From positions 2,863 through 23,184 of the IMG/VR virus record IMGVR_UViG_3300030102_004162: 20,322 nt of DNA; one strand, 5' to 3'. The stretch comes from a virus. Both the position numbers and the translations under genes were made by a program. The notes below the pieces were generated by a model. It worked only from the letters and a program-made list of their open reading frames with translations. It ran no database searches and was not told where the DNA came from. Positions 1-11,478 of this stretch are shown here, piece by piece (positions within the stretch are counted from its first letter, which is position 1; each line of letters starts with the position of its first letter).

Positions 1-1148
1 CCTGTCATAGAAACGCCGATAAGTGCATCCCTTTCGGTAGTTCTTTGCCAAACAGGTCGCAAATAGTGGAAATCGGTGTAGCTTGCTTGAAGTGTGCCGA
101 TAAAAGTCGCTGCCCGAACTCGTGCTTCGTACTCCTCTTGGCTGTCTACATTTGAGACATTAACCTCTGTGAGATTACAGAACTGAAACGGGCGTAGTGC
201 AATTTCACAACATGGATTGGTGCCCCAGTCCTTGTCATATGTAAAATAAAAGCCCGGTTCGCCTGCGCCAGAAGCTCTGACTCGTTCCCACAAATCTTTG
301 AAGAAGTCCTCTGTGATCATGTGTCGCATCAGGGCGACCGAGTTGTTAGCCCGTCCACGTTGCGGGTTAGTTTCCCACCAGTTTCCTGCTTTACAGCCAA
401 TCATTTCGTCATCATCAGCAGAGAACAGCGAGATAAGCGCTGCGCGTCGGATGCCGCCAGCCAGAACAGCATCTGCAATGTGACAGATCATATCATGCAC
501 TTCAATTGGGCTCAGCTTGTCGCCATTTTCTTTAGCCTCTAACATGCCCTCAAGCTTAACAAGGCACTCCTTAAGTGGTTGTGGACCCGGTGCCTTGCCG
601 CCAGATGTCACCAATCTGGCACCCTTGGGTCTAATGTCTGAAAAATCGAAACGCAGCTTGGAAGTGCCCTTAAAATAAGAGCCTACCAAAGCCTTTACTG
701 CGTCTGCCCAACCCTCAATGGAATCACCAACGAGATATCTATAAGTTCTTTTGCCGGATGGCTTTCTGATTTCTGGAAGCTTTTCGACATGATGGCTTTG
801 CACAGAGTAGCCAACCCCTGTGCCCCCAAGGAGCAGGAACATCGCCTCACCAAAAGCTCGCACGTCATCAATTGGCATGTAAGCACAATTGAACACGCGA
901 TTGGGCGCTACTTCAATTGGCTTGCCGCCGAACTGCATCGAACGCATGGAAGGAAGAACTTTCTTGTCATAAACAAATTGATAAACAGCCTCGATCTCAT
1001 CCTTAAGATGAGGAAACTTTTTAATATGCATGTCCTTGTTTCTACTCACAAGCTCGTTAAAAAGCTCGCGACGGTTCTGTTCTGGCAAGTACCTTGCGTA
1101 CTTCATGTGTACCGTGATGTCTGACAAAATCTTCGCTGATAATTCCAT
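1..1148 (-). CDS. nrdJ: Adenosylcobalamin-dependent (class II) ribonucleotide reductase, 5' part
   Basis: Reduces ribonucleotides to deoxyribonucleotides for phage DNA synthesis, using a B12-derived radical, so it needs no separate R2 subunit and no anaerobic activase. I translated 382 residues; the C-terminus lies beyond the window. Seen directly: FNCAY with Cys88, GGTGVGYSVQ (108-117), FSDIRPKGARLVTSGGKAPG (169-188), GGIRRAALISLFS (231-243), and NPCCEIALRPFQFCNL (311-326). In the last motif Asn311, Cys313, Glu315 and Cys324 have the spacing of the thiyl-radical site of the monomeric Lactobacillus leichmannii RTPR (N406, C408, E410, C419), and Cys88 corresponds to C119. The missing C-terminus should carry the re-reducing cysteine pair. 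The ATG follows the helicase stop by one base, with AAGGA about 12 nt upstream inside the helicase gene, so translational coupling is likely. Family assignment is firm. Confidence 0.95.
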   Translation of the reverse strand, partial: MELSAKILSDITVHMKYARYLPEQNRRELFNELVSRNKDMHIKKFPHLKDEIEAVYQFVYDKKVLPSMRSMQFGGKPIEVAPNRVFNCAYMPIDDVRAFGEAMFLLLGGTGVGYSVQSHHVEKLPEIRKPSGKRTYRYLVGDSIEGWADAVKALVGSYFKGTSKLRFDFSDIRPKGARLVTSGGKAPGPQPLKECLVKLEGMLEAKENGDKLSPIEVHDMICHIADAVLAGGIRRAALISLFSADDDEMIGCKAGNWWETNPQRGRANNSVALMRHMITEDFFKDLWERVRASGAGEPGFYFTYDKDWGTNPCCEIALRPFQFCNLTEVNVSNVDSQEEYEARVRAATFIGTLQASYTDFHYLRPVWQRTTERDALIGVSMT

Positions 1149-1149
1149 T

Positions 1150-2505
1150 TTACTTTGATCCTTTATCCTTAAATTTCTTATATTGCTCTCGCAACTTTTC
1201 TCCTTGAGATTTCATATTTAGCTCGATCTCCTCTCTGGAGACTTGCTGCAAAACTTTAATTTTTACATTGCTCGTATCCATTACCATTGGATAGATCAGA
1301 CCATCTGGTCCATTTCTATTCTTTGCAATGAACATGCGCCCTGTATTGGCTACTTTGTCATCGGCTGTTCTAGAGACAGAAAAAATGAAATCTGCTACAA
1401 AACACTTGTTAAAGGCTTCTGAGATAGATTCCATCGTGATAACTTCGGCATTCAAGCCGCTACGATTTGTTTGTGATGCTGTCCATATTGGACACTCTGC
1501 CTCCTGTGCGATTCCTCTTAGCTCTTCATAAATAGTTTCCAACTCATGTCTTTTCTCTCTCAGACCAGAAATTGGTCGTAATAAATCTGCATAATCTACA
1601 ATAATCATATCGGGCTCGATGCCTCGATTCTTCAGCTTCTCAATGTGCATTTTAATAGAATTTGTAGACGCTGACTTGGTTGGGTACTCCTTAACAATAA
1701 GCGAGCCTTCTAGGTCTGTGACCTTTTCGTAGATCATTTCTTTGAATGAAAAGACATCGTTCAATGGAACGCCTGTAATGCAACTATCATAACGGGTTCC
1801 GATAACTGTGTCCGAGAGTTCCAGAGTGTAATGGACAACAGTTTTGCCTGCCTTTACCGCCTGAGAGCCCAGATGCACCAGAACCATGGACTTACCTGCC
1901 CCCGTTGGGGCAATGACAACACCAAGCTCTCCCTTTCCAAGACCACTTTTACAAATAGCGTCTACTTCACTCCAGCCCGTAGAGACAGGATCTCTTGTAC
2001 GAATCTCAAATCGCTTTTCGAAGTCTTTGAGATAGTCGTAACCGTAGTCATTAGATGCTCCCAACTTTAGGGCGTCGTTGATGACTTGCGATATCTCATC
2101 AAACGAAGCCTTCTGCAAAAGACCAACCGAATGCATCATGGCTTCTTTCAGCTTTTGCTTTCGACAAAACTCAAGCGCCGTAGTCTTGACATATTCAGAG
2201 CCTTCGACCTCTACATTAAAAATTCTTGCAAAGTAATCTCGAATCTGCTTCTGGACTGCCTCATTTTCCTCATCAAGCTCAGTTCTGAGGATCGTAATCA
2301 TAATTTTAGTAGTTGGGTGTACGCTGTACTTTTCCCTATATTCAAGTATCTTTTTTACGAATACCTGAAGATATTTAAGTTCTAGAAAGTTTAAATCTAA
2401 AACCTCTGTGATCTGGTCTGCGAAAGGACGATCCAGCAGTATAAGTTGACATAAACTTTCCTGAAACGCCTTACCAAACCGACCAAAGTCAGTCTTCTCT
2501 GACAT
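1150..2505 (-). CDS. DnaB-type replicative DNA helicase (T4 gp41-like)
   Basis: Hexameric 5'-3' helicase expected to unwind DNA ahead of the phage polymerase. The 451-aa length is close to T4 gp41 (475 aa). The N-terminal ~150 residues are helical, as in DnaB N-domains. The RecA-like motor follows: Walker A APTGAGKS at 199-206 (Lys205), conserved ELS at 229-231, Walker B MIIVDYADLL at 300-309 (Asp304), and TASQTNRSG at 342-350 with the sensor Gln345 and Arg348. The start ATG at 2505 lies about 14 nt after the predicted transcription start of the promoter at 2526-2554. The Shine-Dalgarno is a poor G-run. The ribonucleotide reductase gene follows after one base. Helicase identity is certain; equivalence to gp41 rather than a generic phage DnaB is inferred from context. 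Confidence 0.95.
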   Translation of the reverse strand: MSEKTDFGRFGKAFQESLCQLILLDRPFADQITEVLDLNFLELKYLQVFVKKILEYREKYSVHPTTKIMITILRTELDEENEAVQKQIRDYFARIFNVEVEGSEYVKTTALEFCRKQKLKEAMMHSVGLLQKASFDEISQVINDALKLGASNDYGYDYLKDFEKRFEIRTRDPVSTGWSEVDAICKSGLGKGELGVVIAPTGAGKSMVLVHLGSQAVKAGKTVVHYTLELSDTVIGTRYDSCITGVPLNDVFSFKEMIYEKVTDLEGSLIVKEYPTKSASTNSIKMHIEKLKNRGIEPDMIIVDYADLLRPISGLREKRHELETIYEELRGIAQEAECPIWTASQTNRSGLNAEVITMESISEAFNKCFVADFIFSVSRTADDKVANTGRMFIAKNRNGPDGLIYPMVMDTSNVKIKVLQQVSREEIELNMKSQGEKLREQYKKFKDKGSK

Positions 2506-2562: not shown

Positions 2563-3543
2563 TTAAGTATTCTTGCTGGCAACTACTCTCTTGAAAAATG
2601 CAAACAAATCAGTACAATCCCAAACTCCAAATCCGTCATTAAGCATCATTGCCTTAGTTCCAGTCTGATTGAACTCAGGGACAAAATTGTCAAGAGAATA
2701 TCTAAGCTTTGTCTTTCCTTGTGGTGAAATGGAGGGGTCGTACAATTGCATTAGTCTAAAATTACTAGCCATCAATTGGCTGTTCTCCATAACATTTTTA
2801 TAAATCTTAAGCTTGCTGTCTGTCTTTTCACATCTTTCAATAACGTCTTGAACAGTATATACTTTGTCCTCAGCTAAGAATTCAAACCTCTTAGCCACGG
2901 AGGCAAGCCCAACCCCCCTGATTCCATCTAGATTATCTGAACGGTCTCCCACCATTGCTCTAGCAAGAGCAAAGTTGTTTGGATGGATGCTGTAATCTTC
3001 AATGATTGTATTTCTATTTACGATCTTCTTTTGGATAGGACGATAAATTATTGTCTCATCATCACAAAGCTGGAAGAAATCTTTGTCACTAGAGATGATA
3101 ATCTTTTGCCAGCCAGCATACTTTTTGTCCTGTACAACATAAGAAATAATATCATCTGCCTCGACCGACTCCAGCATAAGCTGAATAATGGGCATATTAT
3201 TCAAATATTCGATGAGGCGCTGTTGTTGCCACATCTTATTCTCTCGCTCCTCGACCTCAGACATTGTACGAATGTCTCGGTTAAGCCGAACAGGGGAGCG
3301 CCCTGCTTTGTAGTTTTTATTCTTTGTCTTTCGACGGCGAGAGCCGCCTGCGCCGTCCCAGCAGATGATGACTTCATCTGGAGACATCTCTCTGATCATC
3401 TTCTGTAGAATTTTTAGGAAACCTTTCAAGCCTCCGATGGGCTGTCCATTTGTTGACAGTGATGGGTCAACTATGTAAGCTCTGAAATACATATTCAGGG
3501 CATCAATAACCAAAAGGCGTCTTACATTCTTTTTTGAAGTCAT
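2563..3543 (-). CDS. 5'-3' exonuclease / flap endonuclease (T4 RNase H-like)
   Basis: FEN-family nuclease expected to remove RNA primers and 5' flaps during lagging-strand synthesis. The 326-aa length is close to T4 RNase H (305 aa). Acidic metal ligands are visible in order: LLVIDALN (Asp14), IICWDGAG (Asp63), VEADDII (Glu128, Asp130, Asp131), ISSDKDFFQL (Asp153, Asp155) and GDRSDN (199-204) leading into the helix-hairpin-helix GIRGVG (207-212). A basic stretch at about 69-81 fits the helical arch that grips single strands. The ATG at 3543 is preceded by GAGGAGG. Because the phage polymerase is a family A palm without the N-terminal nuclease, this stand-alone gene probably supplies that activity. 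Family assignment is secure. Confidence 0.93.
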   Translation of the reverse strand: MTSKKNVRRLLVIDALNMYFRAYIVDPSLSTNGQPIGGLKGFLKILQKMIREMSPDEVIICWDGAGGSRRRKTKNKNYKAGRSPVRLNRDIRTMSEVEERENKMWQQQRLIEYLNNMPIIQLMLESVEADDIISYVVQDKKYAGWQKIIISSDKDFFQLCDDETIIYRPIQKKIVNRNTIIEDYSIHPNNFALARAMVGDRSDNLDGIRGVGLASVAKRFEFLAEDKVYTVQDVIERCEKTDSKLKIYKNVMENSQLMASNFRLMQLYDPSISPQGKTKLRYSLDNFVPEFNQTGTKAMMLNDGFGVWDCTDLFAFFKRVVASKNT

Positions 3544-3593: not shown

Positions 3594-3899
3594 TTACAGT
3601 TTAATTTTAACAGTAACCCGCTTTCTCCGATGATGGTGATGGTGGTGATGCGTATGACCGTGAGTTCTAATAATAACTCGTGGATGCCTGTGAACCACCA
3701 CATTTCTACAGTTTCTTTTTACATTGTATGTATAATACCCATCAACCAAGATTCGACCGCGACTGTTAACAACAGCGGGCACCCAAACCCATCCTGTTTT
3801 TACATTTTCGCAAACGGTCCTAACTTCATGGGCTTCAGCTTCCTGCATCAGCCCTAAAGACATAAATGAAAGCAACATTACTGAGAAAAACTTCATCAT
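3594..3899 (-). CDS. Secreted histidine-rich protein
   Basis: Family not recognised. The 101-aa product begins with a clear signal peptide (MMKFF, hydrophobic segment, then EAEA before His) with likely cleavage after about residue 23, so the mature part should be periplasmic or outside the cell. The C-terminus has a run of seven histidines plus HGHTH and HRH motifs, followed by the basic segment RRKRVTVKIKL. Together these suggest metal binding (Zn, Ni or Cu) or a charged surface contact. Two cysteines remain in the mature part. GTG 3902, ATG 3899 and ATG 3896 are all possible starts; AGGAGGAG at 3907-3914 gives the best spacing (7 nt) to ATG 3899. It sits between the recombinase and 5' nuclease genes, an odd place for an exported protein. 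Function is unknown; metal binding is inference. Confidence 0.8.
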   Translation of the reverse strand: MMKFFSVMLLSFMSLGLMQEAEAHEVRTVCENVKTGWVWVPAVVNSRGRILVDGYYTYNVKRNCRNVVVHRHPRVIIRTHGHTHHHHHHHRRKRVTVKIKL

Positions 3900-3917
3900 C
3901 ACTTAACTCCTCCTGTC

Positions 3918-5054
3918 CTAATTAGACGGCTGAACTTCGATATTATTCACTTCTTCATCAGTATTGTAAAAACTATCTGCGGTGCCTTCCCGCTTGTCGA
4001 ACTTCTGAATAACTTCGCGATCCATGATCTCTAGCACGCGCTTCTTAAACTTATCGCTCTCAAGCGCCTTCATCCAACGAGAAGGTTGAAACTTATCTAC
4101 GGTCCCGTCATCATACTCCAATGAATACCATGAGCCAGAATTGCTAAGCGACTTAGACCCCTTGATTGCTTCAAACCATGACTCTTCGTCTTGGACGCCA
4201 ATCTCATCTCCCCACAAGATCTTAAAATTACACTGACGACCCTGTGTCCCAAAACGAGATTTCTCAAGCTTAACCTTAACCTCTGATCCAATTCGGAATC
4301 CCTTATCATCTGTAACGAAGCTTGCTTTCGCTTTTCTGCCTGTTAGCCAAACACGAAGAGAATAGGCATAAATCATAGCTTTTCCTCCCGGCGTCATATA
4401 CGGCGTTGTGAGAGCTTCCGATGGGGATCTGGTAATGTTAGCTTTTAGCTGATTAAGAACCAAGAATGTAGATTGGCTATTTGCAATTGGGACTGTCAAT
4501 TTAGACATACCCTTCGCCAAAATACGAGCCTTGACAGCCATAGAAGATTGAGGATTAAAATCGCCCTCAACATCAGATACAGAAGGCGTCAAAGCAAGGG
4601 AATCCCAGATGAAGAGCATGCGGTTTTCATTAGAGCCCAACAACTCTTCGATGGTTTCCAGCACGAACTCAACAGACGTTGCCTGAACATAAAGTAGCGA
4701 CTCTAGATCACAGCCAGTGCGCTCCAGAAAGGAAGGGTCAATTGCAGACTCAGAATCAAAGTAAACAACATCGATTCCCATTTTCTGAGCATTTGCCGCC
4801 ACCTGAGCAGCCATATAGCTTTTGCCAGTAGCCTCAAGACCTGCAATCTCTGTTACTTTGCCGACTGGGATGCCCGCAAGCTTACCTTTACAAATAATTG
4901 AGTCTAGCCAGCGAGAGCCAGTGGGAATCCACTCTTTGACCTCTGTTGGGTTTTCGCTCGTTAGATCATGTGCTACAGACATACCAGCCTTTCGGTTAAT
5001 AATGTCGCGCATCTTGCTGATAGACAGCTTCCCTGCTTTGACTGCTTTTGCCAT
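3918..5054 (-). CDS. uvsX: RecA/UvsX-like recombinase
   Basis: Strand-exchange ATPase that coats ssDNA for recombination-dependent replication and repair in T4-like phages. The 378-aa length is close to T4 UvsX (391 aa) and bacterial RecA. Visible motifs: Walker A GLEATGKS (72-79), YFDSESAID with Glu102 in the catalytic-glutamate position, Walker B LFIWDSLA (Asp151), FLVLNQLK (about 197-204, the Gln202 switch region), and TTPYMTPGGKAMIYAYSLRV, which corresponds to the RecA L2 and following strand. The C-terminus is acidic. The Shine-Dalgarno AAGGAG is contained in the last codons of the preceding 62-aa gene, so the two are coupled. UvsX is used because of the T4-like context; by sequence alone RecA-like is the safe call. 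Confidence 0.92.
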   Translation of the reverse strand: MAKAVKAGKLSISKMRDIINRKAGMSVAHDLTSENPTEVKEWIPTGSRWLDSIICKGKLAGIPVGKVTEIAGLEATGKSYMAAQVAANAQKMGIDVVYFDSESAIDPSFLERTGCDLESLLYVQATSVEFVLETIEELLGSNENRMLFIWDSLALTPSVSDVEGDFNPQSSMAVKARILAKGMSKLTVPIANSQSTFLVLNQLKANITRSPSEALTTPYMTPGGKAMIYAYSLRVWLTGRKAKASFVTDDKGFRIGSEVKVKLEKSRFGTQGRQCNFKILWGDEIGVQDEESWFEAIKGSKSLSNSGSWYSLEYDDGTVDKFQPSRWMKALESDKFKKRVLEIMDREVIQKFDKREGTADSFYNTDEEVNNIEVQPSN

Positions 5055-5571: not shown

Positions 5572-5832
5572 TCAGCTTCCTGCACTTGTTGTGGTGCCTG
5601 TATCAGATCCCGAATCAGATCCGGTGTCATCGGTAGGCGTCTTAGTCTCACCCTCTGTGGTCTCCTCCGTAGTCTCCTCCGTAGTTTCCTCGGTGGTAGT
5701 AGTGGTGGATTCAACAACCGCAGTATCCTCGTCACATGCATCCGAACAGCCAGTCACAAAAGAAAGTGCTGCCAAGATAGCCACGCCAAAAACGGCACCT
5801 GTAACGTGGTCCTTATTGATCATACTAAACAT
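5572..5832 (-). CDS. Small lipoprotein, Thr/Glu-rich
   Basis: 86 residues with a lipoprotein signal: hydrophobic stretch AVFGVAILAALSFVTG ending at lipobox FVTGC (Cys29), which signal peptidase II would cleave before lipidation. Ser after the Cys argues for outer-membrane sorting in enterobacteria, though that rule is not universal. The mature part is low-complexity: T-runs, repeated TTEE, then Asp/Gly/Ser, with no predicted fold. The ATG at 5832 has AGAGGA about 11 nt upstream. It is followed by the acidic membrane protein. An outer/inner membrane pair could be spanin-like, but neither shows the usual coiled coil or proline-rich spanin features; a role at the infected-cell surface such as superinfection exclusion is equally possible. 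Function unknown. Confidence 0.8.
   Translation of the reverse strand: MFSMINKDHVTGAVFGVAILAALSFVTGCSDACDEDTAVVESTTTTTEETTEETTEETTEGETKTPTDDTGSDSGSDTGTTTSAGS
5659..5694 (-). repeat. 12-bp tandem repeat in the lipoprotein gene
   Basis: Three near-identical 12-bp units (agtctcctccgt on the plus strand, one or two changes per copy) encode the TTEE repeats. Unit length is a multiple of three, so copy-number change by slippage would lengthen or shorten the protein without breaking the frame. Confidence 0.8.
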
Positions 5833-5983: not shown

Positions 5984-6742
5984 CTAGGCGCTCTGCTGGA
6001 GAAGATCGTCAAATGCTTTCTGCACCTGATCTTCGTTCTCCGTCGAATACTTGGTAGTTTCAGTGCCGGAATCTTCCGAATCACCTTCTGCAAGCCAAGC
6101 ATCCAGCATAGCCCCTACCTCTTCTGGCGTCTTGCGCTCGAAGAGAGAGTTGAAGTCTGGAATACCATCCAGAAGTTCTCGACAACGGTCTGGACCGCCT
6201 ACAGCCTCATCACACAAGGGCGACGTTCGACGACGTGGCGTAATAGTCGTCTGAGGGTACGAAGCGCCTGCTGGCTTTCCATACTTGATCACCAAGTCGG
6301 TTCCCTCATCGACATCAGTAATGTCGCCATATTCCGGGTTCAACACAAGCTCAAGAAGCTGCTGGTAAGCCATCTTCCCGAAGCCCCAAATCCGAATACC
6401 CTTGCTTTCCTCGCCGCGAACCAGAACTGGCGCGAAGAAACGCTGACGTGCCATCAAGCTCTTAGCCATCTTAATGCTGTCTTCCGTGCCCTCGTTGAAA
6501 AGGTTACGAATAAACTCATCAAGAGGATCAGACTCTCCAAAGTTCTTCTTCGGGCTCAGGAAACCATTGTTGTTTCCGAGGTTGTAGTGGAACCAATAAT
6601 CCTTGAAAGGATCTCCATCGGCGGGCGACACGATACGAATCGTCTGCTCACCGTCTTGTGGACGCCAAAAGACACCGCTCTTGCCACCCTTGTTTTGAAC
6701 TGCTGCGAGCTTTTCTCGCATTTTCTTAAGGTCAATACCCAT
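5984..6742 (-). CDS. Single-stranded DNA-binding protein (T4 gp32-like)
   Basis: Coats ssDNA at the fork and recruits replication and recombination proteins. The 252-aa product has the gp32 layout: a basic N-terminus (MGIDLKKMREKLAAVQNKGG), a core with the OB-fold-like stretch GVFWRPQDGEQTIRIVSP, RFFAPVLVRGEESKGIRIWGFGK (about 101-123) typical of phage gp32 proteins, and an acidic C-terminal tail (GDSEDSGTETTKYSTENEDQ) that normally contacts partners. It is shorter than T4 gp32 (301 aa), and I do not find the His-Cys3 zinc set of T4 gp32; only two cysteines occur, near residues 177-189. Shine-Dalgarno AGGAG with an A-rich spacer precedes the ATG, under its own predicted promoter and leader hairpin. 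Assignment rests on layout and motif resemblance. Confidence 0.85.
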   Translation of the reverse strand: MGIDLKKMREKLAAVQNKGGKSGVFWRPQDGEQTIRIVSPADGDPFKDYWFHYNLGNNNGFLSPKKNFGESDPLDEFIRNLFNEGTEDSIKMAKSLMARQRFFAPVLVRGEESKGIRIWGFGKMAYQQLLELVLNPEYGDITDVDEGTDLVIKYGKPAGASYPQTTITPRRRTSPLCDEAVGGPDRCRELLDGIPDFNSLFERKTPEEVGAMLDAWLAEGDSEDSGTETTKYSTENEDQVQKAFDDLLQQSA

Positions 6743-6798: not shown

Positions 6799-6827
6799 AA
6801 TGTATCACGCTTTGGTAGATGTGTCAA
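6799..6827 (-). promoter_or_regulatory. Sigma70-like promoter for the ssDNA-binding protein gene
   Basis: On the minus strand a perfect -35 TTGACA (6822-6827), a 17-bp spacer and -10 TACATT (6799-6804). The -10 sits in GTGATACATTA, nearly the same string as at the helicase promoter. It overlaps the last codons of the upstream 84-aa gene. The start should fall near 6792. Confidence 0.78.
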
Positions 6828-7059
6828 GCGAAAATTCAAACTTTTTTACGTCACCCTGAACGGTGCCCCAGTTAAAAATTCGAAATCCCGCATTATCAAT
6901 GTCCCAGACTAGCTCGTTCCCTTCTTTCAAAGTTCGCTTCTTGCCTGTTCCCTTGACATGCTCCTCAAGCCAATCCGCTGGCATCTCTGAAGTTCGTACA
7001 AAACGAATCTCCCTAGACGAACCGTCTTTCTTGGTGTAAGTTGCTTGATAACCAATCAT
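6805..7059 (-). CDS. Small SH3-barrel-like phage protein (WYL_2/DUF2693-like)
   Basis: 84 residues rich in beta-forming segments: YQATYTKKDGSSREIRFV at the N-terminus, a short basic turn GTGKKRTLKEG, then ELVWDIDNAGFRIFNWGTV. The pattern of a KKDG turn, a VWD strand and an aromatic FRxFNW strand resembles the small proteins of T4-like phages grouped as WYL_2 (Sm-like SH3 beta-barrel, formerly DUF2693), whose molecular role is not established. The ATG overlaps the stop of the tubulin-like gene as ATGA, so translation is coupled. Its 3' end carries the promoter of the next gene. Family call is from memory of the pattern and is moderately sure. Confidence 0.75.
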   Translation of the reverse strand: MIGYQATYTKKDGSSREIRFVRTSEMPADWLEEHVKGTGKKRTLKEGNELVWDIDNAGFRIFNWGTVQGDVKKFEFSLDTSTKA

Positions 7060-7892
7060 AATGTAACCCCCTGAATATGTGGTGTGTGATAAGAAGAGAA
7101 AATAAAATTATCATCGTAGTCGGATGAATAGATGGCGAATGAGGATCTTGAATCAGGCTCTCTCATCTCTTCAACTTGATTGCTGATCGTCTTCAGCAAT
7201 TTTCCACTAGACGTTAAGTCTTCCCTCTTCAGAAGATAAAAGTAACATTTTTCTCTCACATTGTCAATAGAAAAAAGCTTTTTTTCTTCCCCACTTTCAA
7301 AATCAACAATCCCAATCGTTGAAATTCTACATGTGTCCTTGATTTCATTTATCTTGCCTATGACTGGCTCTGAGTTTTTTAGCACGTTTAACATGTGTAT
7401 GACGTTGACTATCATTTGATTTAGAACATCATAATACCCGATAATTGGTAAATCACCTACAACATCCTCTACTACATCGTTGTCTACGATTATCATTCTT
7501 TCAAATACTGCTGAGCGTGCATATTCTTGGAACACACCAAAACAAACATTGTGCATCTTTTCTTTTATATCTGTTAACCTGTCTAAATTTGGCTTTATGT
7601 ACAAGACAGTGATTTTACAATCTTTAATTTGATTCAAAATTTTTAATGAAGCGCCCGCGATCCTAGAAGCCCCGCAAACAATAAACAAAACTTCTTCATC
7701 AATGGATTTGAAAAACTTTTTTAAATTTGGCGCTCTTGCTTCGTATTCCTCTGGGTGGTCGCACTTAGGAAACTTATATGACCTATCGCCGCTTTCAATC
7801 TCATCGTCTATCATATAGCAGTCATATTGCGGATAGTTTGATAGTTCTTTTGCGATGGTGCAGCCTGCTTTTCCTAGCCCAATAACGTTCAT
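7056..7892 (-). CDS. Divergent tubulin/FtsZ-like GTPase (candidate)
   Basis: 278 residues, shorter than FtsZ (~350-400 aa). Features line up in order with the tubulin/FtsZ GTPase fold: strand and phosphate loop NVIGLGKAGCTIAKEL (2-17), close to the tubulin T1 pattern GQAGCQIG; a glycine loop CGASRIAGAS (73-82) where the signature GGGTGSG is expected; then TVLYIKPN (95-102), an amphipathic helix, and ERMIIVDNDVVEDV (131-144), which resembles FtsZ IVIPNDRLL; a long helix H7 (about 153-172); and INEIKD (181-186) in the place of the T7 loop that carries catalytic Asp in FtsZ. The C-terminal part is short. The ATG overlaps the preceding stop by one base. If real, it could form filaments positioning phage DNA or factories, as PhuZ does, but the degenerate glycine loop leaves GTPase activity uncertain. 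An NAD-binding Rossmann protein is the main alternative. Confidence 0.6.
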   Translation of the reverse strand: MNVIGLGKAGCTIAKELSNYPQYDCYMIDDEIESGDRSYKFPKCDHPEEYEARAPNLKKFFKSIDEEVLFIVCGASRIAGASLKILNQIKDCKITVLYIKPNLDRLTDIKEKMHNVCFGVFQEYARSAVFERMIIVDNDVVEDVVGDLPIIGYYDVLNQMIVNVIHMLNVLKNSEPVIGKINEIKDTCRISTIGIVDFESGEEKKLFSIDNVREKCYFYLLKREDLTSSGKLLKTISNQVEEMREPDSRSSFAIYSSDYDDNFIFSSYHTPHIQGVTL

Positions 7893-8962
7893 TAAGCCCT
7901 CAAGATAGGCGTTACTGCCTCTAAAGCTTTTTTATTAGTTGCTTCGATAGTCTCTATCTTGCCCCTTAACTTATCACGTTGTTTCTCATCTTGCAAGTCA
8001 GAAATCTTTTTTTCTATCTTTTTAGAAGTTCTGGTCTTGTGCTCTTCAAGCCCCTCTTCATAATTAAATAATACTTTTTGCAACATGTCTTTTGCAGGCA
8101 TGTAGCCCGCCGACTCCAGCGTCAGCGCCAACCCTCGAATGCCCTTTGCTAATTTTGCAAGTGATATTTCGCCGGTCATTCCACCGTGAGAGCTTAAGTC
8201 TGAATGTATCTTTACGTCGCCATCTTTTGTCACATACCTTGCCAAATCAATAAGAAAGTTTTTTGGACTCGTAGAGACTATTTCGAGATCAACTCCTTTT
8301 CTCATCCTGCTTGAAACAAGCTTGCCATCTTTGGTTCTTGCTATGATCCCTTCAGTTCCAATCGTGACCGGGAATATATCGCCAAGCGCCTTGTATAGTT
8401 TGCCCATGGTGTACCCTTTGAGACCCCGCTCGGGCGTATAACGAACCTTCATCCAATCAGAATACTTTGGGAATGTTACCACTGTGTCAACCTGCACAAG
8501 CAAGCCCGGATGAGCCTCAAGAATGACCATTAGCGGATCAGAGCCATCTTTAATGGTCTCGTATACATTAATCTCAGGCGTAACCATATCAGACTCTAAA
8601 AACTTCTTAAATAAGGAGCGATACTTAGTTTTTGTTGCGTTCTCTAGCTTTCTAACCTCTGTGTATCCTTTGGATGCCTCTTCGGGGAACGGCAACTCAA
8701 CTAGATAATCAACATCGCCGTAGATGACGCTCTCGCCGTCTTGCATGTCTTTCTGGGCATATGAAACGGAGCCGACAGGCTTCACTTCCCTAACAGGAAG
8801 CTCGCTATTTGACTCTAGCCAGCGATTAAAGTCAGAAATTACACGTCTATACACATCAAACGCCTTGATAACAAGGCTGGGAGTCAAATTTGAATCAGTC
8901 TTGGCTGATTTTAAGCCACCCTCAAAAATAAACCTGTTCCAGTTGCCAAAATAATCTTGCAT
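7892..8962 (-). CDS. Nucleotidyltransferase-fold protein (Pol beta superfamily, candidate)
   Basis: About 356 residues from the ATG at 8962. That start is preferred over GTG 8974 because GGAG lies 6 nt before it. The N-terminal half carries the nucleotidyltransferase pattern: VGSVSYAQ (Gly64-Ser65), then YGDVDYLVELP with the Asp83-x-Asp85 pair, and a third acid in LLVQVDTVV (Asp159), consistent with two-metal chemistry on a nucleotide. The C-terminal ~80 residues are a basic, Lys/Glu-rich helical region (KTRTSKKIEKKISDLQDEKQ) that may be a coiled coil or nucleic-acid contact. It lies between the polymerase (18 nt away) and the overlapping tubulin-like gene. Possible roles are tRNA/RNA end modification or protein nucleotidylation; the substrate cannot be told. 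The glycine-to-Asp spacing is longer than usual. Confidence 0.7.
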   Translation of the reverse strand: MQDYFGNWNRFIFEGGLKSAKTDSNLTPSLVIKAFDVYRRVISDFNRWLESNSELPVREVKPVGSVSYAQKDMQDGESVIYGDVDYLVELPFPEEASKGYTEVRKLENATKTKYRSLFKKFLESDMVTPEINVYETIKDGSDPLMVILEAHPGLLVQVDTVVTFPKYSDWMKVRYTPERGLKGYTMGKLYKALGDIFPVTIGTEGIIARTKDGKLVSSRMRKGVDLEIVSTSPKNFLIDLARYVTKDGDVKIHSDLSSHGGMTGEISLAKLAKGIRGLALTLESAGYMPAKDMLQKVLFNYEEGLEEHKTRTSKKIEKKISDLQDEKQRDKLRGKIETIEATNKKALEAVTPILRA

Positions 8963-8980
8963 GCCGTTCTCCACATATAA

Positions 8981-10153
8981 TTAGATGGTCAAGCCCGTTT
9001 TTACTCCAACCATGTACTTTCCAAACCTAGTATCACCAAAAGTTTGAACTGCTTTTCTGATAATCTCGCTATCTTCTTTAGCTACATCTAAAATTATCTC
9101 ATCGTGAATAATAAAAGCAATCCTTGACCTGCATCCACGAAGCATTTTATCTATTTTTATCGCCTGCTCTACTACCATGTCGGATGTTGTGCTTTGAATA
9201 AGGTAATTTAGAGCCCTTCTTTTATCAACAGCGATATTTCTTCCAAAAGGAGTCGAGACCGTGGTGCCATTCCAGTGTTTTTGCACAAGTTCTTGTCTAT
9301 TATATGCCCTTTCAAGTAAACGGTCACTAGAATCTGGATTATATAGCCAAGAAAAAAGACGTTTCTTAGCCTCTTCTCGCGAGCCTGTATTACCGAATAC
9401 GTTTACCTTATTCCACTCATGGATGTCCTCTACGGGCTGCTCAGAGCCTCCCAAGGCAAGTAGAGTTCTAAGTTCTGCACCGTTAAAGTCAAGGCTGATA
9501 AAACTGTCGTTGCTTGGTCGAATCGATTTGCGGTAATCTTTTGGCAATGTCAAGATTGGGAAGCCGCCCTTTTTTGTTGTCAGTCGCCCAGTCTTAGTTC
9601 CAAAAAGATTATATCTACAGTATGGACTTAGATGACGCAGCTTTTTAATATCTTGTCGAACTTTACTCTTGTGCATGCTGTTTCGCATATTAGACCAGTT
9701 TAAGTTTACTTTTTGTAGAGAAATTTTGTGCAAAAGCTTGGCGGCTCCCAACAGATGCTCATAGTTATCTGGCTTTTCATAACTCTCAAACACATGTTGA
9801 CATATTGCATTTTTTACAAAACAGTAGTCCTTTAAGAATCTTTCGGGAACCAAGTCATAGAAACAGTTATCCTCAAGAGAGACTTTTGCTTCGAAGATAG
9901 ATCTCATGAAAGCTTGCAATTTTTTATTTACAAACTTCCAGTCTTCTTTCAGATGATCAGGACAAGCGTCGTCAAGCCCACGCCCACAGTACAGATCAGC
10001 ATACTCAATATCGTATCCTTCCAAGTAGGAAGCATATGTCCATGTTCTTGTCCCTGAGAACCCATCTTTGATACGATCCTCGCCATATAGTAATGCTCCA
10101 TCATTATAAACACCCACGCACTCTTGTTTGCTGTCTAGGGTCTGGAAAAGCAC
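8981..10153 (-). CDS. Compact family A DNA polymerase
   Basis: Replicative polymerase of PolA type reduced to palm, fingers and a short thumb. Numbering the 394-aa frame from TTG 10165: a template-contact region GTKTGRLTTKKGGFPIL (189-205), motif A SLDFNGAELR (Asp226, Glu231), O-helix motif B with Arg263, Lys267, Phe271 and Tyr275 at the canonical four-residue spacing (the glycine after Phe replaced by Ser, and the one after Tyr by Asn), NYLIQSTTSDMV (320-331), and motif C IIHDEIILDV (His354-Asp355-Glu356). No DxE exonuclease motif is visible in the first 180 residues and no 5' nuclease domain is present, so proofreading must be absent or come from another gene. GTG 10153 is chosen because GAGG lies 6 nt upstream; TTG 10165 overlaps the upstream stop and has no clear ribosome-binding site. 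The enzyme family is certain. Confidence 0.92.
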   Translation of the reverse strand: MLFQTLDSKQECVGVYNDGALLYGEDRIKDGFSGTRTWTYASYLEGYDIEYADLYCGRGLDDACPDHLKEDWKFVNKKLQAFMRSIFEAKVSLEDNCFYDLVPERFLKDYCFVKNAICQHVFESYEKPDNYEHLLGAAKLLHKISLQKVNLNWSNMRNSMHKSKVRQDIKKLRHLSPYCRYNLFGTKTGRLTTKKGGFPILTLPKDYRKSIRPSNDSFISLDFNGAELRTLLALGGSEQPVEDIHEWNKVNVFGNTGSREEAKKRLFSWLYNPDSSDRLLERAYNRQELVQKHWNGTTVSTPFGRNIAVDKRRALNYLIQSTTSDMVVEQAIKIDKMLRGCRSRIAFIIHDEIILDVAKEDSEIIRKAVQTFGDTRFGKYMVGVKTGLTI

Positions 10154-10161
10154 CAAGCACC

Positions 10162-11478
10162 TCAATAAATGATTGTGTTCTCGGAGCGACCAAAGAGCTT
10201 AATTATATCCCTAACGTCGCTTGAGTCATATTTTCTTTCCGCTTCCAGAGACTCTGTTAGCTGATCAAACTGTGACGAGTTTGGCGTGCTTGCAAAACCT
10301 CTAAACTTGTAGTCAATATAACCCATTGCTCTCTCTAAGTCAAATGTTCTTTCAAGATCTAGTGCATTTCTTGTAATCTTTTGAACCTCGTTCTCGTCAT
10401 AGCCAAGGTATGTCTCCATAGACTTGAATTGAATATATACCTGAAGCCAGTAAGATGGTTCCCTAAAATCTTCGTCTCTGCTCTGAATGGTGTCTCTCGT
10501 AATCACTTTATAGTATGTACACCCATTTTTCTCATATGGTATCCTAGTCATGGGTTTATCGATTGCCACCTGATTATAGAGCCTTATCATATTATTTCTG
10601 AGAAGTTTAATGTCCATCTCTGACGCTTTCGTGTAGTACCTTTCAAAGAAAGAGTTTAGATCTGAATACTCTGGGTATCTCTTTTTGATATATTCTTGCA
10701 TTTGCGACGAACCAAGATTGGCAACAAGCCTCCAAGGAGCATTCTTGTCAACCCAAAAGCCATATTCAGCAGCAAGATTCTTGTGGATACCAAACCTCCT
10801 GTTGTCTATGAATAAGTTCTGCTTTTTTTCATCATCGCCATGGTCAAGCTCGCCTATCTCAACTGCAAGACCCGTGCTCAAAACTGATCCATATTTAGAA
10901 ATTAAGTAAGAAGATAAATTGAATGGCACAGACGGGAACAAGCCGATTCGAGCAAACTGCGCGAAGATATCTTTGAAGTCTTCAAAATTTTCAATATCGG
11001 CTATTTTGTTTCTGCCTATTAAATAATCCTGATAAAAAATATCAAAGATCTGCCTTATATGATTGTTGTAATTCTTTCCCACATTATCATAGGCTCTGCC
11101 AATCTGATAAGGTCCGATGTATAATTCCTCTGAGTCATCGGCATTTTTCAAAGAGAGACCGCCATCTTGAATTCGTAAAGTAGCGGTCTTCAGCAAATCT
11201 TTAAAAGCGTCCGCAACAAAATCAAAAGCGAAAAAAGGCTTTTTACTTTTGGAGGGGAGACGAGCGAAATATTCTTTATTGGGTAGAACTATGTTCTCGC
11301 TCGTATCTATTCTTCCGTAAAAAAGATTTTCATAAGTTTTAAAATCTTTTATCACAGCGTCCGATGGCATACTTGGGTCAGCCTCATAGGCATATAGATC
11401 GTATGCGATGCGCCGCAAAAACAAATCTGTAGAGCTAGAATCTGTGTTCTTTGCTATGAATTTTTTTCTAATAGACAT
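10162..11478 (-). CDS. Uncharacterised protein, probable virion component
   Basis: 438 residues, no recognised domain. It is rich in aromatic residues (many Tyr and Phe), mixed alpha/beta in appearance, with no signal peptide or membrane segment. Strong Shine-Dalgarno GGAGGTG precedes ATG 11478, twelve nt after the 926-aa gene stop. It follows the tail/baseplate genes, which suggests a baseplate, neck or capsid-associated role. Its stop falls inside the start region of the DNA polymerase gene, so it could equally belong with replication. Function cannot be assigned from sequence alone. Confidence 0.8.
   Translation of the reverse strand: MSIRKKFIAKNTDSSSTDLFLRRIAYDLYAYEADPSMPSDAVIKDFKTYENLFYGRIDTSENIVLPNKEYFARLPSKSKKPFFAFDFVADAFKDLLKTATLRIQDGGLSLKNADDSEELYIGPYQIGRAYDNVGKNYNNHIRQIFDIFYQDYLIGRNKIADIENFEDFKDIFAQFARIGLFPSVPFNLSSYLISKYGSVLSTGLAVEIGELDHGDDEKKQNLFIDNRRFGIHKNLAAEYGFWVDKNAPWRLVANLGSSQMQEYIKKRYPEYSDLNSFFERYYTKASEMDIKLLRNNMIRLYNQVAIDKPMTRIPYEKNGCTYYKVITRDTIQSRDEDFREPSYWLQVYIQFKSMETYLGYDENEVQKITRNALDLERTFDLERAMGYIDYKFRGFASTPNSSQFDQLTESLEAERKYDSSDVRDIIKLFGRSENTIIY

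Follow-up and report, generated by a model that had tools for sequence, protein, structure and literature searches.

Gene content of the locus

The window, that is, the whole stretch of 20,322 nucleotides analysed here from the IMG/VR virus record IMGVR_UViG_3300030102_004162, carries on its minus strand a block of DNA replication genes that encloses an open reading frame for a predicted tubulin-superfamily protein, termed TUB. The relevant genes are as follows.

1150..2505, minus strand: gp41/DnaB-like replicative helicase (DnaB_C 2.6e-19; PHROG 19 1.9e-72)
2563..3543, minus strand: 5'-3' exonuclease, FEN (PF02739 4.1e-30)
3918..5054, minus strand: UvsX-like recombinase (PHROG 97 6.4e-54)
5984..6742, minus strand: gp32 single-strand DNA-binding protein (gp32 Pfam 1.8e-9; PHROG SSB 2.8e-24), the conserved gene 3' of TUB
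6805..7059, minus strand: small WYL_2/Sm-like protein, optional, found in 40 loci (PF10902 E 0.0012, below cut-off)
7056..7892, minus strand: TUB, 278 aa, ATG start, with an AlphaFold2 model and at least 587 relatives
7892..8974, minus strand: 360-aa protein between polymerase and TUB, found in some relatives only (12 loci)
8981..10165, minus strand: family-A DNA polymerase (DNA_pol_A 4.6e-14), the conserved gene 5' of TUB

The TUB reading frame had been singled out, together with its short length, in a preliminary description of this DNA, and both points hold: the frame is intact and encodes 278 residues. It overlaps both of its neighbours: the start of TUB shares TAATG with the stop of the preceding gene, that of the 360-aa protein, and the stop of TUB shares ATGA with the start of the following gene, that of the WYL_2/Sm-like protein. 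TUB is single-copy within its own virus record of 24,876 bases. Four pairs of close relatives give dN/dS values of ~0.05-0.07, so TUB is a real, constrained gene, and purifying selection acts on the family.

Extent of the family and visibility to sequence searches

Relatives of TUB in IMG/VR numbered 10 in a first scan, then 271 and finally at least 587 loci in profile scans, the last figure being a lower bound on the size of the family; 93 diverse relatives make up the alignment used for the counts given below and for the structure model. Exactly one copy is present in each of ten large viral records (72-193 kb). Outside this collection the family was not encountered: 50,697 records of cultured phages yielded no match beyond a single chance hit at E 2, and the 31 pattern matches among 84,980 GTDB genomes include no relative of TUB. 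Searches of Pfam, PHROG, PADLOC and PDB sequences assigned TUB to no significant family. The curated cut-off of PF00091 was not reached, the window protein giving no match and 6 of 93 members matching weakly (best 0.0055). Sequence methods thus barely detect the relationship to tubulin. With no entry in PHROGs or Pfam and hardly a trace in sequence searches, the family amounts to an unannotated tubulin in hundreds of viral genomes.

Predicted fold

The AlphaFold2 model built from the 93 relatives has a pLDDT of 95.8 and a pTM of 0.93, and contains the two-domain arrangement of the superfamily, with a Rossmann-like GTPase domain, helix H7 and a C-terminal alpha/beta domain. Against the PDB, Foldseek matches the model to FtsZ (7ojd) at E 4.6e-13, and VIA aligns it to the archaeal tubulin-like protein CetZ (3zid) with Z 25.0 and an rmsd of 2.8 over 256 residues at 16% identity, followed by TubZ (2xka, Z 23.9), FtsZ (2r6r, Z 22.9) and tubulin (9n9g, Z 21.8). 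The VIA alignment covers residues 1-278 and thus both domains, with Z scores of 21.5-25.0 across the tubulin superfamily, to which all of the best PDB matches listed by either program belong. A model from a shallower alignment of 10 sequences shows the same fold at a pLDDT of 71.7 and finds FtsZ at Foldseek E 3.6e-8 and VIA Z 19.1. Among the viral models of BFVD, the best Foldseek match is the phage 'FtsZ' A0A6J5RW92 (E 3.8e-13) and the fourth is the PhuZ of phage Noxifer (E 1.2e-7). A profile comparison with eight FtsZ-like sequences (hhalign) is collinear across 256 columns at E 0.017, although E-values from such single comparisons are rough and are not the main evidence.

By DSSP of the model, and with helix and strand names assigned by element order, the N-terminal part comprises S1 (2-6), H1 (7-17), S2 (24-29), S3 (38-40) and H3 (47-52), followed by S4 (67-72), H4 (77-88), S5 (93-100), H5 (108-126), S6 (132-137), H6 (138-145) and H7 (153-172). 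A T7 segment of 17 residues then leads into S7 (190-196), S8 (214-222), H10 (223-243), S9 (249-257) and S10 (263-270). The segments of TUB that bear on its activity map to the window as follows.

7851..7886, minus strand: T1 loop and start of H1, residues 3-14, VIGLGKAGCTIA (from conservation in 93 relatives)
7647..7676, minus strand: degenerate T4 loop, residues 73-82, family consensus GGSGxISGAS (93-member alignment)
7512..7529, minus strand: QEYARS, residues 122-127, at the C-terminal end of helix H5 of the model, the most conserved patch of the family
7467..7487, minus strand: T6 loop VDNDVVE, residues 136-142, with candidate guanine contact N138 (paired by hhalign with FtsZ IPND)
7377..7436, minus strand: central helix H7, residues 153-172, a helix in the model, with candidate guanine contacts Y154 and N158
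7326..7376, minus strand: remodelled T7 segment, residues 173-189, containing INEIKD, with no NxDxxD motif and no H8 (model and alignment)
7083..7325, minus strand: C-terminal domain, residues 190-270 (S7, S8, H10, S9 and S10; H8 and H9 absent; DSSP of the model and VIA alignment)

The assignment to a divergent phage tubulin/FtsZ-like protein, first made from scattered motifs, is upheld by this confident predicted structure: since the whole chain matches the tubulin superfamily with Z up to 25.0, the motif resemblance is more than chance. The model supports placing TUB as a new family within the tubulin/FtsZ superfamily. That TUB is instead a classical NAD(P)-binding Rossmann protein of the TrkA_N or dehydrogenase type, mistaken for a tubulin, is very improbable. 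A GxGxxG loop is common to both folds, and TrkA_N (PF02254) matches 10 of 93 members weakly (best 4.2e-5), with the window protein at 8.6e-5, below the cut-off; these matches are set aside because the predicted structure disagrees. The outcome that would have spoken against the first reading, a classical Rossmann fold or a chain devoid of H7 and the C-terminal domain, did not appear: the model has both elements, and all of the top PDB matches listed belong to the tubulin superfamily, which contradicts this candidate.

The predicted nucleotide pocket

The phosphate-binding side of the predicted pocket is divided between a well-kept and a degenerate loop. In the T1 motif GxGxxG, G7 and G10 are invariant across the 93 relatives, with G5 in 92, C11 in 85 and A14 in 84 of them. 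The T4 loop retains G74 in 85/93 and G76 in 65/93, and neither GGGTG[SA]G nor the wider signature [SAG]GGTG[SA]G is kept by any of the 93 members. On the guanine side, the T6 pattern reads (V/I)DNxxxE and H7 begins YxxLN, motifs similar to the beta-tubulin segments IDNEAL and YGDLN. In tubulin, N206, Y224 and N228 contact guanine. The corresponding positions in TUB, an equivalence set by sequence alignment and not by superposition, are N138 (84/93), residue 154 (mostly Tyr, His or Phe) and N158 (85/93), and all three candidate contacts are present in the window protein. The first reading of this gene had recognised GLGKAGC as a phosphate loop, GASRIAGA as an altered glycine loop, IIVDND as an FtsZ-like strand and loop, and a long central helix behind them; these segments are borne out as T1, T4, T6 and H7, respectively.

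The two Asn positions vary together. Both are present in 84 of the 93 sequences and both absent in 8, one sequence being mixed, which ranks N138-N158 first of 37,675 column pairs by strength of association; the next partners include A9 of T1 and G76 of T4. On the tree, the states of the pair change ~3 times, and well-supported branches force only one of these changes; the alignment thus shows a strong coupling that is not proven by many independent events. The coupled pair suggests that TUB binds a guanine nucleotide, and the pattern across the family points to a guanine-nucleotide pocket present in most members and lost in a minority, such that the 8-9 members lacking N138/N158 may be unable to bind guanine nucleotides. 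Since most members keep T1, the Asn of T6 and the Tyr/Asn of H7, TUB most likely binds GTP or GDP.

The T7 region and the loss of H8

In an active, polymerising tubulin or FtsZ GTPase, the catalytic motif of T7 completes the site of the neighbouring subunit, and helix H8, which follows T7, lies in the longitudinal interface. The segment that follows H7 is 17 residues long in 93/93 members, the catalytic motif NxDxx[DE] occurs between H7 and S8 in 2/93 members only, and the model, which has no helix between residues 172 and 223, lacks H8. INEIKD, originally proposed as the catalytic T7 loop, does lie in the T7 region and is probably not the catalytic motif: N182 is present in 6/93 members. An acid is found at position 214 in 97% of members, and acids at 175, 183 and 186 are partly conserved; together these residues could still support hydrolysis, and because of the acid at 214 the loss of hydrolysis is likely and not proven. 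With the T4 loop degenerate and both the T7 motif and H8 gone, GTP hydrolysis coupled to polymerisation in the usual way is unlikely in TUB. In tubulin, FtsZ and the TubZ of phiKZ, a common protofilament interface is filled by the T7 loop together with S9 and the base of H8 (PMC3678025).

Within the most conserved patch, QEYARS, residues Q122, R126 and S127 are found in 93/93 members and Y124 in 92/93. R189, just past the T7 segment, is present in 86/93. By fold topology, Q122, R126, S127 and R189 should lie on the T7 side.

Comparison with known tubulin-like proteins

CetZ (e.g. 3zid, 4b45), the best structural match, shares with TUB the GTPase domain, H7 and the C-terminal domain; TUB differs in being a viral protein of 278 aa, encoded in a replication operon and devoid of H8, H9, GGGTG[SA]G and the T7 motif. 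FtsZ (e.g. 7ojd, 2r6r) is similar by Foldseek, VIA and the collinear profile alignment, whereas in TUB the T3, T4 and T7 motifs are absent or degenerate and there is neither a C-terminal linker nor a C-terminal peptide. The closest viral fold, A0A6J5RW92, is annotated 'FtsZ Cell division GTPase' and comes from an uncultured Caudovirales phage (TM 0.78 on TUB); at 452 aa it is far longer than TUB, with which it shares 14% identity.

Moving or segregating DNA is the task of the phage tubulins known so far (PhuZ, TubC/TubZ), TubZ acting together with TubR and a centromere. The plasmid and phage partition tubulin TubZ (e.g. 2xka, 4ei7) matches TUB over 273 residues and likewise serves mobile or viral DNA. 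Unlike TubZ, TUB lacks the T7 catalytic acid motif and has no recognised TubR or centromere beside it: no TubR-like adaptor gene was recognised, and no convincing iteron array found, in the three loci scanned. PhuZ of the nucleus-forming jumbo phages (e.g. 201phi2-1 gp59, 315 aa) is, like TUB, a phage member of the superfamily and appears among the BFVD matches, although a direct profile comparison (hhalign) gave no useful signal (27 columns, E 0.19). The two occur in different virus groups, PhuZ in the Chimalliviridae and TUB in T4-like phages bearing gp23. In phage RAY, PhuZ has the T4 signature of tubulin; a third of the PhuZ clade is without this protein, which can be deleted in phiKZ (PMC10299810). 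PhuZ is optional in its clade; TUB, in contrast, is present in every locus judged.

These comparisons bear directly on whether TUB could be a dynamic filament of the PhuZ or TubZ kind, one that polymerises with GTP, hydrolyses it by means of a rebuilt T7 segment and serves to position or segregate the DNA of the phage. The whole-chain matches to TubZ and CetZ argue for it, as do the guanine-site residues retained in most members and the acids at 214 and, in part, at 175 and 186, and there are precedents for cytoskeletal proteins that serve phage DNA in PhuZ (PMC4244570) and in the actin-like AlpC, which is needed for efficient prophage replication (PMC4446434). TUB nevertheless lacks the T7 motif and H8, elements of the protofilament interface, and the TubR-like gene and iterons of a partition system were not recognised next to it in the three loci scanned; its constant presence also differs from the optional PhuZ. 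A filament of this kind is unlikely, although it is one of the two main rivals of the scaffold proposal made below.

Position of TUB in the replication module

The gene neighbourhood is strongly conserved. Wherever the position could be judged, the family-A polymerase is 5' of TUB (120/120 loci) and gp32 is 3' of it (132/132 loci), and gp32 is followed by UvsX, the FEN nuclease and the helicase. The result is the same when loci are selected by polymerase: TUB is found in 76/76 of those nearest the query polymerase, in the order polA-TUB-gp32 that is also seen in the TUB-selected loci. The T4-like genes in the window include gp32, UvsX, the helicase and a T4 baseplate protein, and the T4 capsid protein gp23 is encoded by 7/7 large TUB genomes (160-193 kb). 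The genome is thus T4-like, as first described, with a gp23-type capsid in its large relatives and gp32, uvsX and gp41 replication genes in the window itself. The gene is not a peculiarity of one such genome; it is present at all the loci judged across a large uncultured clade, each time between the polymerase and gp32.

The gene order suggests co-expression and does not point to physical interaction. On the strength of the polA-TUB-gp32 order, the overlapping genes and the single copy per large genome, a role in replication is favoured for TUB. We lean towards an explanation in which TUB is a tubulin-superfamily protein recruited to the replication module, where it would act as a scaffold that binds nucleotide, couples little or no hydrolysis to polymerisation and organises phage DNA or replisomes. 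According to this proposal, an uncultured clade of T4-like phages would have taken up TUB as a core component of its replication module, co-expressed with the polymerase, the single-strand DNA-binding protein, the recombinase and the helicase. What the analysis establishes is the predicted fold, the conservation, the gene order, the lost motifs and the coupled Asn pair; nucleotide binding, absence of hydrolysis, the part in replication and the oligomeric state are inferences. TUB would keep the two-domain tubulin core and, in most members, a guanine pocket, and it probably does not go through the usual cycle of polymerisation followed by hydrolysis, being devoid of the T4 signature, the T7 motif and H8. 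Its most likely form would be a nucleotide-gated scaffold, whether an oligomer or a stable polymer, that holds or positions the replicating phage DNA or the replisome.

A sister clade with a different protein in the same slot

Flavobacterium phage immuto and Microcystis phage Mel-JY01 come closest among cultured phages when gp32 and the order of the genes are compared. Together with environmental relatives they form a sister clade that has no TUB and carries, in 74/74 loci, a different, conserved protein of 130-150 aa in the polymerase-gp32 slot (examples are L181:1346-1798, plus strand, and L180:5675-6061, plus strand). This protein was not found in the TUB loci. Because the two clades have different proteins at this position, one slot holds two apparently unrelated proteins. 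The possibility that the immuto and Mel-JY01 slot genes are split or fused tubulins was considered and dropped, as profiles gave no sign of it.

The slot exchange, together with the fixed position of TUB between polymerase and gp32 and the loss of the H8/T7 interface elements, is what one might expect of a replisome subunit that works as a monomer or dimer, never builds filaments and acts as a nucleotide-switched accessory of the polymerase or the single-strand DNA-binding protein, for instance in loading, processivity or coupling; a partner site could then be formed by R189 and the conserved QEYARS patch. Occupation of the same slot need not, however, imply equal function, and the finding that the sliding clamp Pfam model matches 0/7 genomes comes from one model without a positive control above the cut-off. 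We regard such a subunit, the other main rival of the scaffold, as rather unlikely. A broader proposal is offered tentatively, with the balance against it: TUB would be an obligatory, possibly non-filament-forming subunit or scaffold of the replisome, for which guanine nucleotide is a switch and not the fuel of polymerisation, and whose slot is filled by an unrelated protein in the sister clade.

A second phage tubulin

A further, canonical-looking tubulin-superfamily protein, T2, is a 364-aa product (L344:1027-2121, minus strand; also L347-L426) whose family occupies at least 107 loci in IMG/VR and has no match in the cultured-phage records. One TUB genome (G005) also encodes a 364-aa T2, with GGGGTGS and a T7-like FDSKDLE, which scores 3.1e-7 against PF00091 in a genome search, below the curated cut-off. 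GGGTGS is found in 69/69 members of the T2 family, and FDSKDLE is conserved after H7. Like TUB, T2 belongs to the tubulin superfamily and occurs in T4-like genomes with gp23 (13 of 15), sometimes alongside TUB; unlike TUB, it keeps the GGGTGS T4 loop and FDSKDLE, shows no linkage to polA or gp32 in the loci scanned and is rare in TUB genomes. A full-text search for phage and marine tubulin homologues, with subscription papers and preprints outside its scope, returned no published description of either the TUB or the T2 family.

Among 16 large genomes chosen for T2, 5 also carry TUB, and an interaction of the two proteins is possible where both occur. Co-occurrence of this sort, and the retention of the fold despite the loss of catalytic elements, would suit a regulator or cap that co-assembles with another tubulin, either the FtsZ of the host or a second one of the phage, and blocks or templates it. 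Most TUB genomes examined, however, lack a second tubulin: T2 was not found at E <= 1 in 10 other large genomes of the TUB clade (6 picked by TUB and 4 by polymerase), so TUB is not dependent on T2. An inhibitor of division, moreover, need not sit in the polymerase-SSB slot in every genome, and a capping or regulatory function is improbable.

The scaffold reading, if correct, would make TUB a naturally occurring example of a cytoskeletal fold enlisted for DNA replication. TUB differs from known phage tubulins in its presence in every judged locus of an uncultured T4-like clade, in its place within the replication gene block and in the loss of the parts required for filament turnover, and it would offer a test of what remains of tubulin without catalysis and H8.

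Other features of the window

The family-A polymerase of the window (8981-10165, minus strand) is only 394 aa long, and Pfam matched no exonuclease domain in it; the polymerase of T4 belongs to family B. Directly before the polymerase, in most TUB loci, lies a gene for a 438-aa protein (10162-11478 in the window, minus strand) with no significant Pfam or PHROG match. At the other end of the block, a class II (B12-dependent) ribonucleotide reductase (3-1148, minus strand) is cut by the window edge (PHROG 367 2e-84; RNR-II insertion domain 7.6e-9). Two small reading frames also lie on the minus strand. The first, of 102 aa (3594-3902), has a signal-like N-terminus and a histidine-rich tail, HTHHHHHHHH, and is rare among relatives (3 loci). 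The second, of 86 aa (5572-5832), overlaps another reading frame and combines a lipoprotein-like start with a TTEETTEE repeat, which makes it a candidate low-complexity secreted protein or lipoprotein.
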